Assembly: GCF_003610195.1 (NCBI RefSeq)
Contig: NZ_RAPO01000006.1
Span: 1 to 64,000, forward strand
Source of the DNA: Halopiger aswanensis
GTDB taxonomy: Archaea > Halobacteriota > Halobacteria > Halobacteriales > Natrialbaceae
Direction: 5' to 3'
Length of the DNA: 64,000 nucleotides
A program made the translations under genes and the position numbers. This document shows positions 41,750 to 53,719 of the stretch, in pieces. Numbering within the stretch: position 1 is the first letter of the stretch; each line of letters starts with the position of its first letter. Under the pieces are notes generated by a model. The model did not search any database. It worked only from the letters and a program-made list of their open reading frames with translations, and had not been told where the DNA came from.

Positions 41750-42472
41750 ATGGAATCCGTACAAATCGACCCGGACGCACAACTCGGCGAACTCGTCGCA
41801 TCGAACCCCGAATACGCCCGCGTTTTCGAATCGCTCGACATCGACTACTGCTGCGGTGGCGCCACGTCGCTGGCGACGGCCTGTGAGGAGGCCGACCTCG
41901 CGCTCGAGCGGGTCGCCGAGCGCCTCGACGCCGCCGAAGCGGCCGACGATGGAGCGTCCGACCGCGAGTACGAGTGGGACTCCCCGACGCAGCTCGCGAA
42001 CGTCATCGTCTGGGACCACCACCGGCCCCTGCGGCGGAACCTTCCCGACCTCGAGGCCCTCGTGGAGAAAGTCGCGGACGTCCACGGCGACTCCCATCCG
42101 GAGCTACGGGACGTCGAGCGCGAGGTTACGGCACTCGTCGACGACATGTTCCACCATATCGACGACGAAGAGCAGAACGCCTTTCCCATCGTCAAGAAGC
42201 TCGATACGGGGACCGAACTGACGGCCGCCGAACGAGCACACATCGAGGACGAAATCGAGCACTTAGAGGAAGAACACGCCGAAACCGCGGATCGGCTCGA
42301 GCGGATCAACGACCTCACCGACGGCTACGCGGTGCCCGAGGACGCCTGTGCCAGCTACCGCAGCATGCTCGAGCGATTGGAAGCGCTCGAGCGCGAGACG
42401 CACATGCACGTCCACCGGGAGAACAACGTCTTGTTCCCGAAGGCGGAAGCGCTGTTGGCTGAGCGACGATAG
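41750..42472 (+). CDS. ric: RIC/ScdA-type di-iron repair protein
   Basis: A 240-residue protein. An N-terminal ScdA_N domain (about 1-62) has the redox IDYCCGG motif, and the hemerythrin-like domain (about 80-235) has iron ligands in DHHRPLRR, HHIDDEEQNAFP and HMHVHRENNVLFP. RIC proteins (YtfE/ScdA) repair iron-sulfur clusters damaged by oxidative or nitrosative stress. It fits the neighbourhood of terminal oxidases and CDGSH protein. It converges with the first four-paralogue membrane gene, with only 15 nt between stops. Confidence 0.9.
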   Translation: MESVQIDPDAQLGELVASNPEYARVFESLDIDYCCGGATSLATACEEADLALERVAERLDAAEAADDGASDREYEWDSPTQLANVIVWDHHRPLRRNLPDLEALVEKVADVHGDSHPELRDVEREVTALVDDMFHHIDDEEQNAFPIVKKLDTGTELTAAERAHIEDEIEHLEEEHAETADRLERINDLTDGYAVPEDACASYRSMLERLEALERETHMHVHRENNVLFPKAEALLAERR

Positions 42473-42487
42473 CCGCCCGCCGCTACC

Positions 42488-43528
42488 TCATTCCCACTCG
42501 ATTTCCTCGCCGCGGCTCGACTCCCGCAGGATGAACGGGCCGATCGCGAGGGTCCGCTTCGCCACCGTCGCGATACGGAGGACGAACGCGATCAACAGGA
42601 GAAACGGCGTCACGGCGATCGTCGACGCGACGACGACGATCCAGACGAGCGTATCGATCCCGAGGACGGTCCCCGTCACGGCGTTCGCATCGAAAAACAG
42701 CAGCATCGACATCGTCACGACCAGTGCAGGGACGGCGACGTACATCATCGCCCGCGAGAGGTTGATCAACTCCCACTGGAAGTACAGCGTCTTGAAGTGC
42801 TCGCGGGCGAGGCCGAAGAACTTCAGCGACTCGAGCAGCCCGTCGTAGGCCTCGCGGGCGTCGTCGGTAAACGAGTCGGCGTGGGCGTTCTTGATCCGGC
42901 GCGCCCGGAAGATCTTCCAGGAGTAGTTGTAGTCGAGCGCGGCCTTGAGAACGCCGTAGGTGCCGAACTGGGCGTCCTCGAGTTCGGCCTCGATCGCCTC
43001 GGCGTGCGTCGACAGGTTGTCGACGAACTCGTCGACGCGCTCGATCAGTTCGTCGTCCTGACTCGCCGAGACGGCCGCCCGAAAGTCGGTCCCGCGCTCC
43101 GCGGAGGTTGCGACGATCGCCCGGAGGAACGAGGACGGTTCCGGCGGGCTAACCGGCGCATCGATGGCTTGCTCGATGTCCGCGCGAAAGTCGAGCGCCC
43201 CCTCGAGGCGCTCGCGCTGGTCCTCGACGGCGCCGAGTTCCTGCGAGAGCACGAGCGAGTTGATCGTGACGACGAGCGTGACGCCGGTGATCAGCGCGGT
43301 GGTCAGCGCCTGAAACAACGTGTGAACGGGAGTTTTCGTGCCGAGGAGCGCCCGCAGGGAGACGGGACTGAGTTCGCTCGCGAGCAACAGCCCGACGAAG
43401 ATAAACGCCATCAGGCCGGCCGTCACGAGCCAGCGGTTGGCGTTCAACAGCAGGCGGTGTTTCCACGCCGGATCCGCGCTGCGCTCGGCCATCGTGTCGC
43501 TCGGCTCACCGCCGTCGCTCGCGCTCAT
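42488..43528 (-). CDS. Four-paralogue membrane family, member A
   Basis: A 346-residue protein of an unrecognised family. Helices lie at about 33-52, 72-96, 238-260 and 275-300, with a 140-residue helical soluble domain between the second and third. Family blocks: NSLVLSQELGAVEDQRERL (after TM2), DFRADIEQAI..PPEPSSFL, ALDYNYSWKIFRARR, REHFKTLYFQWELINLSR (before TM3), and VAKRTLAIGPFILRESS at the C-terminus. The arrangement is unlike any transporter I know. It is adjacent and parallel to member B, with 82 nt between them. Confidence 0.8.
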   Translation of the reverse strand: MSASDGGEPSDTMAERSADPAWKHRLLLNANRWLVTAGLMAFIFVGLLLASELSPVSLRALLGTKTPVHTLFQALTTALITGVTLVVTINSLVLSQELGAVEDQRERLEGALDFRADIEQAIDAPVSPPEPSSFLRAIVATSAERGTDFRAAVSASQDDELIERVDEFVDNLSTHAEAIEAELEDAQFGTYGVLKAALDYNYSWKIFRARRIKNAHADSFTDDAREAYDGLLESLKFFGLAREHFKTLYFQWELINLSRAMMYVAVPALVVTMSMLLFFDANAVTGTVLGIDTLVWIVVVASTIAVTPFLLLIAFVLRIATVAKRTLAIGPFILRESSRGEEIEWE

Positions 43529-43610
43529 CGCTCGAGGACGACGATACCAGTCCGCGAGGGAAATAGCTACGGCAGGCGTCGCCGACGCCTGACCTTGCCT
43601 TCGAGGCGAG

Positions 43611-44639
43611 TCATCCGAGATCCTCGTCGCGCTCCGACTCCCGCAGGATAAAGGGTCCCATCGCGAGGGTCCGCTTCGCGACCGTCGCGATCCGGAGGAT
43701 GTAGACGATGAAGACGACGAACGGCGCGATGCCCACGACGAAGCCCGCGCTGGTGATCCAGACGAGGTTGTCGACCCCCAGCGTCGTCCCGGGAAGCGCT
43801 TGCCCGTCGATGTACATCATCAGCAGCGCCATCGCGCTCAGTGCGGGGACCGACACGTACAGCAGCGCCCGCGAGAGGTTGATCAACTCCCACTGGAAGT
43901 ACAACGTCTTGAAGTGCTCGCGGGCCGGCCCGAAGAATTTCAGCAGCTCGATCATCTCGTCGAGTTCCGCGTCCGCGTCGTCGGAGAACTCGTCCCCGTG
44001 GTCGGCCCGAAGCTTGCGCGCGTCGTAGATCTTCCGCGAGTAGTTGAAGTTCAGGGCGTTCCAGATCACGTCGAAGGTGCCGAACTGCGCGTTCTCGAGG
44101 TCGTCCTTGACGACCTGTGCGTTCTCGACGGCGTCGTCGACGTAATCCGCGACCTTCGCCTGAAGCTCGTCGCTGTGATCGCCCGCGATCGTCTCCTCGA
44201 GGTCGTTCGCCTCCTCCTCGACCCCGTCCACGAGTTCGTAGAGGAAGGCGGCTGGTTCGGGCGGCGTGACGTCCTCCTCCTCGAGCGAGTCCTCGAGATC
44301 CTGCCGGAAGTCCATGGCATCCTGCATGCGGTCGCGCTGCTCGCCGACGGCGCCGAGTTCCTGCGAGAGGACGAGTTGGTTGATTGTGACGACGATCGAC
44401 GTGCCCGTGATGATCGCGCCGATGAACCCCGAGAAGATCCAGAACGTGCCGTTGTGCTGTTCGACGATCGTCCGCAGGGGCGTCAGCCCGAACTGACTGG
44501 CCCCGACCAGCGCGACGAAGACGATCGCCAGCACGGCCGCCGTGAAGAGCCACCGATTCAGTCGAAGCAACACCCACAGTCGCGGGCCGCCGACGCCGGC
44601 TCGCTGGCTCAACACGCCGCTCGAGTCCGAATCGCTCAT
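43611..44639 (-). CDS. Four-paralogue membrane family, member B
   Basis: A 342-residue protein, closest in pattern to member A. It has the same four-helix plan, with INQLVLSQELGAVGEQRDRM, an Asp/Glu-rich PPEPAAFLYELVDG segment, NALNFNYSRKIYDARK, REHFKTLYFQWELINLSR and TVAKRTLAMGPFILRES. The ATG at 44639 gives MSDSDSSG, matching the short acidic starts of the others. It is divergent from member C over 198 nt, so shared control is possible. Function unknown. Confidence 0.8.
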   Translation of the reverse strand: MSDSDSSGVLSQRAGVGGPRLWVLLRLNRWLFTAAVLAIVFVALVGASQFGLTPLRTIVEQHNGTFWIFSGFIGAIITGTSIVVTINQLVLSQELGAVGEQRDRMQDAMDFRQDLEDSLEEEDVTPPEPAAFLYELVDGVEEEANDLEETIAGDHSDELQAKVADYVDDAVENAQVVKDDLENAQFGTFDVIWNALNFNYSRKIYDARKLRADHGDEFSDDADAELDEMIELLKFFGPAREHFKTLYFQWELINLSRALLYVSVPALSAMALLMMYIDGQALPGTTLGVDNLVWITSAGFVVGIAPFVVFIVYILRIATVAKRTLAMGPFILRESERDEDLG

Positions 44640-44837
44640 TGCGTATACACGAACGGACCACGGCGCCGAACAAAAGCCCTGTCCGGGAGTGAGCAACCCG
44701 AGAACCGCGCCTCCCGGCCAGTCGCCGGGTTACAACTGCTCGCAAAGCAACCGCAGGGGGAGAGACGGCGATTGACGCCCGTGCAAACCACGGAAACACT
44801 TGTCCGGACGACCGTGATACAACGGCACTACGAACCA

Positions 44838-45890
44838 ATGAGCGAGTCACGCGAGCGCGCGAGCGACGAGACGTCGGACACGATGGTCGATCGCGTCCAC
44901 GGCGGGCGGCCAGTGCTGTGGTTTCTCGTCAAGGGCAATCGGGTCCTCGTAGCTGCCGCGATGCTCGCCGTCGCCTACGCCGTGCTCGTCGGACTCGGTC
45001 AGTTCGGTCCCGGCTCGATCACGAAGCTGTTCGAGCCCGATCCGGTCTTCGCCCTGTTCACCCCGATCATCATCGGGATTATCATGGGCGTTAGCCTCGT
45101 GTTGACGTTCAACCAGCTCGTCCTCTCGGAGGAGCTGGGGCCGGTCGGCGATCAGCGCCGGCGGATGGACGACGCGATGGCCTTCCGCGAGGACGTCGAG
45201 GACGCCGTCGGCCGCAACACCAGTCCGCCCGAACCCTCCGTCTTCCTCCGCGGGCTCGTGGAATCCACCGGCGAACGCGCGCGCTCGCTCCTCGAGGCGC
45301 TCGAGGACGACCCGCACCTCGACGATGCCACGTGCGAAGACATCCGCGAGTACGCCGACGGAATCGTCGCCGACGCCGAGCGGGTCGCCGGCGACCTCGA
45401 GGGCCAGCAGTTCGGCCAGTTCGAGGTCGTCGAGTCCGCCCTCGAGTACAACTACTCCTGGAAGATCTACACCGGCCGTCGCGTCCGCAATCGACACGCG
45501 GACGCGCTGCCGAACGCCGTCGCCACGGAGTTCGACGAACTGCTGAACGTGCTCGAGTTCTTCGGGCCGGCCCGCGAGCACTTCAAGACGCTGTACTTTC
45601 GGTGGGAAATCATCAACATCTCGCGGGCGCTGGCGTACATCGCCCTTCCAGCGCTGGCGGTCGCGGCCTACATGATCCTGATCTTCGAGACGGGCGACGT
45701 GGCCGGGACGACGGCGGGGATCGACCACGGGCTGCTGGTCGTCGGCCTGGGGTTCGCCGTCGGCGTGACGCCGTTCGCGATCTTCCTGTCGTACATCCTC
45801 CGAATCGTCACGATCGCGAAGTGGACCCTCGCGATCGGGCCGTTCGTCCTCCGCGAGACCGATCGCGGTTCGGACGTGGAGTGGGAGTAA
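44838..45890 (+). CDS. Four-paralogue membrane family, member C
   Basis: A 350-residue protein. The N-terminal arm contains VDRVHGGRPVLWFLVKGNR. The blocks are FNQLVLSEELGPVGDQRRRM, FREDVEDAVGRNTSPPEPSVF, ALEYNYSWKIYTGRR, REHFKTLYFRWEIINISR and IAKWTLAIGPFVLRETD. The start at 44838 is taken because nothing conserved precedes it, although the frame is open far upstream. It is on the opposite strand to A, B and D. Function unknown. Confidence 0.8.
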   Translation: MSESRERASDETSDTMVDRVHGGRPVLWFLVKGNRVLVAAAMLAVAYAVLVGLGQFGPGSITKLFEPDPVFALFTPIIIGIIMGVSLVLTFNQLVLSEELGPVGDQRRRMDDAMAFREDVEDAVGRNTSPPEPSVFLRGLVESTGERARSLLEALEDDPHLDDATCEDIREYADGIVADAERVAGDLEGQQFGQFEVVESALEYNYSWKIYTGRRVRNRHADALPNAVATEFDELLNVLEFFGPAREHFKTLYFRWEIINISRALAYIALPALAVAAYMILIFETGDVAGTTAGIDHGLLVVGLGFAVGVTPFAIFLSYILRIVTIAKWTLAIGPFVLRETDRGSDVEWE

Positions 45891-45927
45891 GCGCTCGATC
45901 CGGGTGTCATCCTCGCCGTGGCCCGGC

Positions 45928-47004
45928 TCAATCGTCTCGCTGCGACGACTGCTCGTCGCCGTACTCCACGCTGAAGGGACCCTCGTCGGGGTCCTTTTGT
46001 GGAATCATCGGCCCGACCGAGGCGGTGCGGCGCGTGACCGTCGCGGTCCGCAGAATGTAGGAGACGAGCAACGCGAGCGGCGAGAGGACGACGACGATCA
46101 GCGCGCTCACCACGTAGGGAAGTAGGGCCGTGCTGATGCTCGGCCCGGTGACATCGGCGTACAGGAGCCCGACGAGGATCGCCGACAGGATCGAGGGCAC
46201 CCCGCAGTAGATCGTCAGTTGCGAGAACCGAGTTAGTTCCCGCTGGAGGTAGGTCGTCTTGAACTGCTCGCGGGCGACGCTGAACAGCTTCAGGGAGCCG
46301 ATCAGCTCGTCGAGTTGGTCTTTCGCCGTCGGCGACAGCGAGTCGTCGTACTCGTTTCGCAGGTGCGTCGCGACGTACAGCTGCCAGGCCTCGTCGTAGT
46401 TGATCGCCGCCGACACGGCCGAGAACGTGCCGAACGACGACTGCTCGAGCGTTTCGTCGACCCGGTCGGCCCGCTCCTGGACGCTGTTGGTGTATCGGAT
46501 GACCGTCTCGCGGACGTCGCGGTCGTCGTGGTCCGCGACGGTGTCGGCCAGTTGCGCGGCCTCGTGTCTGATCGAGTCGACGATCAACTCGAGTACGCGC
46601 GCGGGTTCGGCCGGAGCGGCCGGGATGGCGGCCTCCGCCGCGACGTCCTCGCGGAAGTCCACGACGCTCTCGAACCGGTCGCGCGCTTTCCCCGCCGAAC
46701 TGAACTCCTGAGAGAGGATGAGCTGGTTAACTGAGACGACCAGGGTCACGAGCGAGAACGTCCCGGCGATCATGCCGCTGGCAACCCGCGTGACGGAGTT
46801 CGGGTTGAGGAAGTTGACGATGCCGAGTTCGTGTAACCCGACGATCAGCGCGAAGATGGCGACCGAGACCAGTGCCGTGACGGCCAGCCGGTTCCCCTGA
46901 ATCAGGAACCACTCGTAGAACTGCGTCAGCGGTCCTGCCTGTCTCCCGACGTCAGCCCCGTAGGACTCGAGCGTCTCGTCTGTCTCGGTCTCGGACGACC
47001 CCAT
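45928..47004 (-). CDS. Four-paralogue membrane family, member D (divergent)
   Basis: A 358-residue protein, the most diverged member. It keeps NQLILSQEFSSAGKARDRF, FREDVAAEAAIPAAPAEPARVL, AINYDEAWQLYVATH, REQFKTTYLQRELTRFSQ and the C-terminal ATVTRRTASVGPMIPQK. The ATG at 47004 is preferred because TTATTG lies about 22-28 nt upstream on this strand; a GTG at 47019 is also open. It converges with member C, with 37 nt between stops. It keeps the fold but loses the LAIGPF motif, which suggests a specialised partner. Confidence 0.78.
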   Translation of the reverse strand: MGSSETETDETLESYGADVGRQAGPLTQFYEWFLIQGNRLAVTALVSVAIFALIVGLHELGIVNFLNPNSVTRVASGMIAGTFSLVTLVVSVNQLILSQEFSSAGKARDRFESVVDFREDVAAEAAIPAAPAEPARVLELIVDSIRHEAAQLADTVADHDDRDVRETVIRYTNSVQERADRVDETLEQSSFGTFSAVSAAINYDEAWQLYVATHLRNEYDDSLSPTAKDQLDELIGSLKLFSVAREQFKTTYLQRELTRFSQLTIYCGVPSILSAILVGLLYADVTGPSISTALLPYVVSALIVVVLSPLALLVSYILRTATVTRRTASVGPMIPQKDPDEGPFSVEYGDEQSSQRDD

Positions 47005-47218: not shown

Positions 47219-47737
47219 ATGACGCGCTCGGAGTCGACGAGCCGGTCACGCCGCCGCCTCCTCGCGTCGCTCGGTGCGGGCGCCGTCGCGGTAGCCGGAG
47301 CCGGCTGTACCGGCAGCGGCGGTCTCGACGGCGAGCCGTCCTACGAGGAAGGCAACGTGGGCGACGTCAACGCCAGCAGCGACGCCAACCGCTCCGCCGA
47401 GGAGATGGTGACGGCCGAGGCGCTGGCCCAACAGGAACCGAACAACTCGGTGACGCCGCTCGAGTCGCTCTCGCTGGTCGACCACGAGTTCGTCGTCGAG
47501 GACGGCTACCTCGGCTCGACGATCCAGGGGACGGTCCAGAACACGGGCGGCGACCGAGTCCAACTCGTCGAAGTCCGGACCCGGATCTACAACGGCTCCG
47601 GTAATCTGATCGGTCGCTACTTCGCGAGTACGGGCGATCTCGACGCCAATGCGGCGTGGGAGTTCCAGGTGGTCGTGCTCGAGGCGCCGGCCGACGTCGC
47701 GGCGTACGATATTACGGTGCTGGGAACGCCGTCCTGA
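47219..47737 (+). CDS. Tat-exported lipoprotein with FxLYD-like domain
   Basis: A 172-residue protein. The twin-arginine signal RSRRRLLASLGAGAVAVA is followed by lipobox AGAGC (Cys about 30), so it should be lipid-anchored outside. The C-terminal half (about 80-172) reads VVEDGYLGSTIQGTVQNTGG and YNGSGNLIGRYFASTGDLDANAAWEF, the FxLYD pattern. The middle is Asn/Ala/Glu-rich. Ligand unknown. Confidence 0.85.
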   Translation: MTRSESTSRSRRRLLASLGAGAVAVAGAGCTGSGGLDGEPSYEEGNVGDVNASSDANRSAEEMVTAEALAQQEPNNSVTPLESLSLVDHEFVVEDGYLGSTIQGTVQNTGGDRVQLVEVRTRIYNGSGNLIGRYFASTGDLDANAAWEFQVVVLEAPADVAAYDITVLGTPS

Positions 47738-47876: not shown

Positions 47877-48755
47877 TCAGGCGTTCTCTTCGTCCTGCAG
47901 CTCCGCGAGTTCGGCTTCGACGTCCGCTTGATCGTCCTCCTCGAGTTCGGTCAGCTCCGCGTCGTCGACCTCGGTTTCGGATTCGGCCTCTGTCTCGGTT
48001 TCGGCGTCCGCGTCGGCCGTCTCGGCGTCGGCAGCCTGGGCCTCCGTTTCCGCCTCGCCCTCGCCGACCTCCGATTTGAGCGTCTCGAGTTCGGCCTCGA
48101 CGCCGCTGTCGGTCGATAGCTGCTCGAGTTCGCGGTCGATGTCGTCCTTGTCCGAGAGGACGTCCTCGAACGCGCCGGACTCGTGGAGTTCGTCCATCGC
48201 GGCGGCGCGGGCCTCCATGTCCTCGGTCTGTTCCTCGGCGCGCTCGATGGCGCGGCCGACGTCCTCGAACTCGTCGCCGGTCGCCGTGATCGCCTCCGAG
48301 ACCTGTGAACTCGCCTTGGCGGCCTCGTGGCGGGCCTTCATCGTCTCCTTCTTGGTGCGGAACTCCTCGATGCGGCTCTGGAGTTCGTTTTTCTGCTCGA
48401 TTAGTTGGTCCTGCTGGCTCTGCAGATCGGAGATCTGGCGCTCCAGATCCTCGATCTGGTTCATCTTCGTCTTCTTCTTCTCGAGCGCACGCCGCGCCAG
48501 GTCCTCCCGGCCCTGCTGGACCGCGGTGCGGGCCTGTTCGTTGTGCTTCTCGACGTTCTCCTCGAGCCGGCGCTTTTGCATCTCGAGGCGTTTTTTCTGC
48601 GTCGTGAGGTCGGCGATACCGCGTTTGACCTCCTGAAGCTGGTCTCGCATCTGCTCGTAGGAATAATCGAGCGTCTCGGTCGGGTCCTCAGCCCGGTTGA
48701 GCAGCGAGTTGATCTTCGACCGGATGACGTAGGAGGTCCGAGAGAGGATGCCCAT
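47877..48755 (-). CDS. pspA: PspA/IM30 (ESCRT-III-like) family protein
   Basis: A 292-residue protein. The first 225 residues are the PspA coiled-coil core, opening MGILSRTSYVIRSKINSLLNRAEDP and then DYSYEQMRDQLQEVKRGIADL. The rest is a haloarchaeal Glu/Ala/Asp-rich tail (about 230-292). PspA/Vipp1 proteins polymerise on membranes and protect them under stress. It is monocistronic. Confidence 0.94.
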   Translation of the reverse strand: MGILSRTSYVIRSKINSLLNRAEDPTETLDYSYEQMRDQLQEVKRGIADLTTQKKRLEMQKRRLEENVEKHNEQARTAVQQGREDLARRALEKKKTKMNQIEDLERQISDLQSQQDQLIEQKNELQSRIEEFRTKKETMKARHEAAKASSQVSEAITATGDEFEDVGRAIERAEEQTEDMEARAAAMDELHESGAFEDVLSDKDDIDRELEQLSTDSGVEAELETLKSEVGEGEAETEAQAADAETADADAETETEAESETEVDDAELTELEEDDQADVEAELAELQDEENA

Positions 48756-49991: not shown

Positions 49992-50633
49992 ATGACCGAC
50001 GTTCTCGTTCCCGGCGGGCGCGACGTCCGCGGGACGCTCGAGGAACCCGCGGACGGCGAGCCGGATGCGATCGTGGTCGCCTGCCCGCCCCACCCACAGC
50101 AAGGAGGGTCGCGAAGCGACCGCCGCCTCGTCGCCGTCGGCGACGTCCTCACGGACGCGGGGATCGCCTGCCTCCGATTCGACTACGGCGAGTGGGACGA
50201 GGGCTACGGCGAACTCGCCGACGCCCGAAACGCCGTCCGCTGGGCCGCCGACCGCTACGAGCGCGTCGGCCTGTTCGGCTACAGCTTCGGCGCGACACTC
50301 GCGCTGCTGGCCGCCGCCGAGTCCGAGACCGTCGACGCCGTCGCCGCGCTCGCCCCGACGGCGCGACTGGCCGACGACCTCGACGCCGTCGCGGCCCTCG
50401 AGTCGATCTCGTGTCCGGTGCAGGTGTGCTACGGCGAGCGGGATCGGACGGTCGAGTGGGAGCCGATCGTCGAGTCCATCCGGGAGACAGCCGCTGAAGC
50501 AGAACGAGACGGTGACAAAACCCTCGTCGCCCTTTCGGGCGACCACTTCTTCGTCGGCCAGCAGACGTCGATCGCCGACGATGTCGTCGCGTTTTTCGAA
50601 TCGAGACTCCGCGAGTCGGGCGACCGGCGGTAA
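49992..50633 (+). CDS. Small alpha/beta hydrolase (dienelactone hydrolase-like)
   Basis: A 213-residue protein with ACPPHPQQGGSRSDRRLVAV near the oxyanion, RFDYGEWDEG, the nucleophile elbow FGYSFGATLAL, CYGERDRTV before the acid and GDHFFVG with His. It resembles KANL3/Tex30- and DLH-type archaeal hydrolases. It begins 40 nt after the preceding hydrolase. Confidence 0.86.
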   Translation: MTDVLVPGGRDVRGTLEEPADGEPDAIVVACPPHPQQGGSRSDRRLVAVGDVLTDAGIACLRFDYGEWDEGYGELADARNAVRWAADRYERVGLFGYSFGATLALLAAAESETVDAVAALAPTARLADDLDAVAALESISCPVQVCYGERDRTVEWEPIVESIRETAAEAERDGDKTLVALSGDHFFVGQQTSIADDVVAFFESRLRESGDRR

Positions 50634-52816: not shown

Positions 52817-53719
52817 ATGACCGCCGACCGTTCGCCGCCGGTTCATCGCGCCGAGACGTGGAGCGAACTGCAAGAACTGCTCACCGCGGAGATGTGGATG
52901 CCGGACATCGGCCGCCACCGCTCCCCGTACGTCTTCCGGGGCGTTCCCGACAGCAACCACGCCCTCGAGACGTCGATCAAACGGTTCGTCGGCGACTCCG
53001 GCGAGTGGAAACTCGAGTCGCTGCTGCTGCGGAACTTCCTCCAGTACGCCTTAAACGAGATCGAGGAGCCGGAGTCGGTCTGGCACCTCCTCTCGATCGC
53101 CGAACACTACGGGCTGCCGACGCGGCTGCTCGACTGGTCGTTCTCGCCGCTGGTCGCGACGTACTTCGCGGTCCGGGACGGCGACACCGCCCACGACGGG
53201 GCGATCTGGGCCGTCGACTACCGCAAACTCCACGAGAACCTGCCGGATCCGTATCGACGCGTGCTCGAGCGGACGCCGACGGACGTGCTCGACGTCCACC
53301 TCCTCTCGAACGCGACGCTCGAGTCCGACGCGGCCGACGCGGCCGCCGCAGGGTCGGAGCCGGCGCGGAACCTGGACGACGTCGCTCGACTGGACGACCT
53401 CTGGAGCGAGCGCTGGGCCGTCGACGCCGACGCGGATCCGGACGGCCAGTACGTCCTGTTCTTCAGGCCGCCCGCGATCGACGACCGCATCGCGAACCAG
53501 TCGGCCGTCTTCTCGTTCCAATCCGATCCGCGGCTGGCGCTCGACGCGTGGCTCGCGGATCGTCCCGACTGCTACCGAAAGATCGTCGTGCCGGGCGATC
53601 GCAAGCTCGAGTACCGCGACAAACTGGACCAGATGGGCGTCAACCACCGGACGCTGTTCCCCGATCTCGAGGGGTTGACGACGTGGTTGAAGCAGTACTA
53701 CCGGCCGGCGCCCGACTGA
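52817..53719 (+). CDS. FRG domain protein
   Basis: A 300-residue protein with the FRG hallmarks YVFRGVPDSNHALETSIKR (about 38-56) and HYGLPTRLLDWSFSPLVATYFAVRD (about 97-121), then QYVLFFRPPAIDDRIANQSAVFSF (about 215-238). The FRG domain (named after F-R-G) is found in plasmid-, phage- and defence-related proteins, and its biochemistry is poorly known. The arginine-rich core resembles ADP-ribosyl-transferase-type active sites by position only. It ends immediately before the stop of an antisense small ORF. Confidence 0.85.
   Translation: MTADRSPPVHRAETWSELQELLTAEMWMPDIGRHRSPYVFRGVPDSNHALETSIKRFVGDSGEWKLESLLLRNFLQYALNEIEEPESVWHLLSIAEHYGLPTRLLDWSFSPLVATYFAVRDGDTAHDGAIWAVDYRKLHENLPDPYRRVLERTPTDVLDVHLLSNATLESDAADAAAAGSEPARNLDDVARLDDLWSERWAVDADADPDGQYVLFFRPPAIDDRIANQSAVFSFQSDPRLALDAWLADRPDCYRKIVVPGDRKLEYRDKLDQMGVNHRTLFPDLEGLTTWLKQYYRPAPD

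Follow-up and report, generated by a model that had tools for sequence, protein, structure and literature searches.

The first 64,000 nucleotides of contig NZ_RAPO01000006.1 of Halopiger aswanensis (assembly GCF_003610195.1), hereafter the window, carry an array of four paralogous genes, A to D, encoding membrane proteins of an unrecognised family. Here, we show that the linkage of this family with pspA, the gene for PspA/Vipp1, is conserved. A PspA/Vipp1 gene faces the D end of the array, outside the interval covered by the initial annotation, which had missed it, and in 38 of 56 haloarchaeal genus representatives, spread over eight families, a family gene is found within 4 kb of PspA. Identifying the membrane components that work with PspA is relevant to understanding how an ESCRT-III-like protein is coupled to the membrane in archaea. 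We propose, with a confidence that stands at about even, that the family is a haloarchaeal membrane-embedded partner of PspA/Vipp1 and that the locus forms a membrane-stress (Psp-like) module specific to this lineage. Found in nine out of ten haloarchaeal genomes, lacking any curated model that we could find, and linked to PspA, the family offers a specific and genetically testable candidate.

Gene linkage between the family and pspA

PspA was taken as the anchor of the survey because loci would otherwise have been chosen by the family itself; one genome per genus was used (56 genera), with up to 19 kb each. Nearly all linked family genes (35/38) were downstream of PspA on the same strand, and the gap between the modelled PspA end and the modelled family start was usually about 50-260 bp outside Natrialbaceae. 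The sole neighbour scoring above the family was a divergent alpha/beta hydrolase, present within 4 kb of PspA in 41 genera. The other genes of the surrounding block had counts below half of the family's at the same distance (pyrG 18, enolase-superfamily 16, guaA 15, and DUF1611 15 genera), and this comparison is the fairer control because genera share ancestry and are non-independent. In genomes lacking the family gene, the following gene of the block can sit directly behind PspA (e.g., genomes G075 and G081). Across 145 haloarchaeal genomes, family and PspA were within 10 kb of each other in 81 of the 128 genomes holding both, whereas we estimate that random placement of about 3 copies in 3.6 Mb would give about 2 such genomes. 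Gene calls at the named loci, the window, and two further loci placed PspA at 50 of 82 family-bearing loci.

Sequence, predicted architecture and distribution of the family

The initial annotation had described four paralogous membrane proteins with three ordered sequence blocks, and the open reading frames, the alignment, and the pairwise E-values confirm this description (Table 1). Judged from these comparisons, A, B, C, and D are full-length homologues with similarity far above chance. Identity to A is 47% for B, 45% for C, and 30% for D, about 50 columns are invariant across the four proteins, and the most distant pair, A-D, still aligns over 309 columns at E=1e-47 (B-C: E=4e-100). All three blocks occur in the same order in every protein. 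D, the family copy closest to PspA in the window, retains REQFKTTYLQRELTRFSQ and has its last block altered to TRRTASVGPMIPQK, in agreement with the earlier reading that it keeps the blocks yet changes the terminal motif. Gene B is 82 bp upstream of gene A on the shared strand, and gene C is divergent from gene B.

Table 1 Features of the four-gene array and the adjoining PspA region in the window (TM, transmembrane helix; aa, amino acids; ORF, open reading frame).
Feature	Position	Strand	Description	Basis
Gene A	42488-43528	-	346 aa, four-TM; subfamily A	ORF and translation; own-genome profile match E=1.3e-175
Block 3 in A, AKRTLAIGPFILRE	42521-42562	-	directly after TM4	alignment and conservation
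Block 2 in A, REHFKTLYFQWELINLSR	42752-42805	-	charged segment leading into TM3	alignment and conservation
Block 1 in A, LVLSQELGAVEDQRER	43208-43255	-	end of TM2	alignment and conservation
Gene B	43611-44639	-	342 aa, four-TM	ORF and translation; AlphaFold pLDDT 85
Gene C	44838-45890	+	350 aa, four-TM; subfamily C, inverted orientation conserved	ORF and translation
Gene D	45928-47004	-	358 aa, divergent four-TM; subfamily D	ORF and translation; AlphaFold pLDDT 81
FxLYD-domain lipoprotein	47219-47737	+	between D and PspA	NCBIfam FxLYD E=2.4e-22
PspA/Vipp1	47880-48755	-	ESCRT-III superfamily	Pfam PspA_IM30 E=3.5e-35; neighbour statistics
Alpha/beta hydrolase	49992-50633	+	dienelactone-hydrolase type, divergent from PspA	Pfam DLH E=2.1e-9

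AlphaFold models for B and D, computed with alignments of 118 and 70 family members, share a predicted plan in which a soluble helical bundle lies between an N-terminal pair and a C-terminal pair of membrane helices, thereby reproducing the four-helix plan around a soluble helical domain that had been read from the sequence. In both models, a long helix after the bundle continues into TM3, which is followed by TM4. Lysine and arginine residues average 3.1 per member in the N-terminal tail, 3.3 before TM3, and 3.4 in the C-terminal tail, against 0.9 and 0.1 in the outer loops. Because these counts fit the positive-inside rule, the bundle between TM2 and TM3 and both termini are predicted to be cytoplasmic. 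Near-invariant residues in the 118 members (B numbering) include R29, N87, S92, E94, F111, R112, P126, P129, F186, G187, R240, E241, F243, K244, T245, Y247, E251, S256, P265, P306, R316, T319, T324, G328, and P329. Those from R240 to S256, each conserved in at least 90% of members, lie in the charged segment before TM3, whose conservation had been noted initially and extends across the family. All three stretches of highest conservation map to the membrane surface on the predicted cytoplasmic side. Many near-invariant residues sit at the junctions of membrane helices and cytoplasm, suggesting one functional face where the helices meet the cytoplasm.

The mixed orientation of the array had been attributed to local duplication with inversion; a recent event of this kind is not supported. 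The tree assigns each of A, B, C, and D to a distinct, well-supported subfamily that also has orthologues in other Natrialbaceae. Haloterrigena and Halopiger show the same D, C (inverted), B, A order, and the orientation of C opposite to PspA is conserved at loci of Haloterrigena, Halopiger, Halobiforma, Natronoglomus, and Halovivax. On this phylogenetic and positional evidence, the array is old and maintained, and not a recent duplication, because the subfamilies are separate and the order, including the inversion of C, recurs in related genera.

Searches with Pfam, NCBIfam, PHROGs, and PADLOC profiles and a sequence search of the PDB gave only chance-level matches for the family, in line with its initial description as unrecognised. 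Foldseek searches of the PDB with the B and D models returned nothing at E below 0.2. VIA-align listed generic four-helix bundles, PilJ/HBM-type sensor domains, and tweety homologues with Z up to 12 (the tweety rows at rmsd 11-19); these matches are within the background stated for helical models, and the three identities were dropped. The family had no match among BFVD viral structures and was not found in IMG/VR viral contigs. For the four proteins, no profile match was obtained to MotA/ExbB (PF01618; Pfam), to bestrophin (PF01062; Pfam, E up to 1), or to PspC and LiaF-TM (Pfam and NCBIfam, E up to 1), so the similarity to bestrophins and MotA/ExbB that the initial annotation proposed to check was not borne out at the profile level. 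Bestrophin is also absent from the 25 families most often matched by the 118 members. With Foldseek, BEST1 ranked 28 (E=0.87, TM-score 0.18), and bestrophin was not on the VIA-align list. A search for the bestrophin profile in 120 genomes of the phylum found none, but the control likewise matched nowhere, which makes this result uninformative.

As anticipated, the family is widespread in haloarchaea, occurring in 133 of 145 genomes and 55 of 59 genera with 1-11 copies each; the Halopiger aswanensis genome holds ten. Outside haloarchaea it is rare: the genomes searched included three Nanohaloarchaea and one methanogen that carry it. Within a 295-genome sample of the phylum, the sole strong match outside the haloarchaeal order came from genome G162, a methanogen judged by its methyl-coenzyme M reductase, and probably a hypersaline one. 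This genome, of another class of the phylum, has one haloarchaeal-type copy (locus L121, 10037-11086) in a region with several transposase-like genes, and the combination suggests acquisition by horizontal transfer. Nanohaloarchaea are obligate DPANN symbionts, and among 28 genomes gathered by taking the phylum of one nanohaloarchaeal genome, 3 had the family. In one of these, a chromosome labelled as the complete genome of Nanohaloarchaea M3_22, the copy clusters with Halorussus (SH-aLRT 97, identity up to 62%) and shares the lower G+C content of its flanking genes; therefore, it was likely transferred from haloarchaea. The nanohaloarchaeal copies place differently, one nesting with Halorussus (L115, 8001-9002), another in a different haloarchaeal group (L072, 7980-8927), and a third being very divergent (L122, 1465-2490), which suggests separate acquisitions from haloarchaea. 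Uptake by these symbionts and the methanogen suggests that the family is useful at very high salt. All matches listed from 72,556 plasmid records were haloarchaeal and either annotated as hypothetical protein or unannotated. In some distant copies, internal stop codons were flagged; we discounted them as mostly the first profile overrunning the natural end, because a wider profile ceases to flag most of them.

Proposed role and rival explanations

PspA is a membrane-remodelling protein of the ESCRT-III superfamily (PMC8281802). In Haloferax volcanii it increases at unfavourably high salt (review PMC3235422), and archaeal Psp networks have been described as largely unknown (PMC9239133). Bacterial membrane partners of PspA are thought to sense the state of the membrane and to regulate or anchor PspA (PMC11237479, PMC9239133). 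The family resembles the bacterial PspB/PspC and LiaI-LiaF-TM proteins in that these, too, are integral membrane proteins encoded beside pspA (PMC11237479, PMC9239133). It differs from them in lacking a sequence match, in its larger size (about 345 aa), in combining four TM with a cytoplasmic helical bundle, and in being haloarchaea-centred and multi-copy. A survey reported one transmembrane protein, Hvo2637, encoded downstream of pspA in H. volcanii (PMC9239133). It is probably a member of the family described here, although it was reported as a single gene with weak bPH_4/EphA2_TM matches and not as a family (PMC9239133).

If the family is such a partner, its conserved cytoplasmic face at the membrane surface, made up of the TM2 end, the REHFKTLYFQWELINLSR helix, and the stretch that follows TM4, would most likely sense or mark stressed membrane. 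The same face would then dock or regulate PspA at that membrane, as PspB/PspC or other anchors do in bacteria. In Natrialbaceae, where several subfamilies stand side by side, there may be a division of labour, with subfamilies perhaps tuned to different cues. A further-reaching version, which we offer tentatively and find rather doubtful, is that this previously undescribed four-TM family is a dedicated PspA membrane receptor that expanded into co-located subfamilies and, as a portable membrane-integrity trait at saturating salt, moved horizontally into a halophilic methanogen and nanohaloarchaeal symbionts.

Several observations weigh against a partnership with PspA. D and PspA do not form one operon in the window because an opposite-strand lipoprotein gene intervenes. 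The linkage is probably of single origin, and the genera are then not independent tests. Family copies occur without recognisable PspA (none above the Pfam cut-off) in three haloarchaea, three Nanohaloarchaea, and one methanogen, so the family is not confined to PspA-bearing genomes; conversely, eleven haloarchaeal genomes hold PspA without the family. Since each occurs without the other, they are not strictly interdependent. Most copies per genome lie away from PspA (six of the ten here), and in a second subgroup the coupling is with a DUF4177 gene rather than with PspA. The linkage could be passive, an ancestral pyrG-guaA-hydrolase-PspA gene order having been retained around a family whose function is unrelated to PspA. 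Such a history would accommodate the conserved order of the whole block (pyrG, guaA, hydrolase, PspA, family gene, enolase-superfamily gene, DUF1611), the Halobacterium-type genome that lacks PspA and retains the family gene beside the hydrolase (L148), and the occurrence of the family without PspA. We nevertheless think it fairly unlikely, given that pyrG, guaA, the enolase-superfamily gene, and DUF1611 are each retained near PspA about half as often as the family, and given the downstream, same-strand position of nearly all linked copies.

Other explanations concern the protein itself. It could be a bestrophin-like or mechanosensitive-like channel for ions or osmolytes that protects halophiles in salt shock and is adjacent to PspA only because both serve the envelope. 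In bestrophins, membrane helices flank a cytoplasmic helical part, and the predicted topology of the family (TM1-TM2, cytoplasmic helical domain, TM3-TM4) follows the same gross order; near-invariant prolines in TM3 and TM4, and a distribution chiefly in extreme halophiles at one to eleven copies, would also suit a channel. A channel appears unlikely to us, as the four proteins match no bestrophin, MscS, or MotA/ExbB profile, BEST1 ranks low and without significance in the fold search, and no near-invariant charged residue lies inside any membrane helix core. Very unlikely, in our estimate, is an origin as a distant, expanded offshoot of DUF2254-type (PF10011) membrane proteins with the helical domain inserted between TM2 and TM3. 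Profile-profile comparison with hhalign aligned a loop-TM2 segment of 29 columns to DUF2254 (probability 38-46%, pairwise P of about 2e-4 to 3e-4, below accepted thresholds), compared with P of about 0.2-0.3 in reversed-sequence controls. However, TM3-TM4 was not aligned in register, the remainder of the protein does not align, and DUF2254 matched none of the four proteins and was missing from the reported Pfam matches. We take the weak TM2 similarity as a lead and not as a classification.

Neighbouring genes and further copies

The divergent hydrolase, as the top PspA neighbour, could belong to the same module as the family, for example by acting on membrane lipids. At three loci that are Halobacterium-like by position (L147, L148, and L149), PspA is missing at its usual place and the family gene is kept beside the hydrolase. 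The FxLYD lipoprotein gene was found within 4 kb of PspA in 14 of the 56 genera, exclusively in Natrialbaceae.

In the subgroup away from PspA, a small DUF4177 gene precedes the family gene on the same strand in eight genomes (loci L123, L124, L125, L126, L130, L133, L134, and L135). In the cases inspected, the DUF4177 stop and the family start either overlap or are separated by about 10 bp, suggesting that the pair is translationally coupled. Two divergent copies stand in tandem at G000:C5:127303-129712 (loci L006, L010, and L143), in the same genome as the array, on a small 150-kb contig that is perhaps a plasmid.

Elsewhere in the window, positions 41750-42472 encode a RIC/ScdA/YtfE-type di-iron repair protein (ScdA_N and hemerythrin) with an adjoining cupin, near what read as cytochrome oxidase and copper-ATPase genes. 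A FRG-domain protein is encoded near the array at 52817-53719 (Pfam FRG, E=3e-24); in PADLOC it is matched best by PDC-S15, a candidate defence family (E=3.7e-48), making it a possible phage-defence gene.
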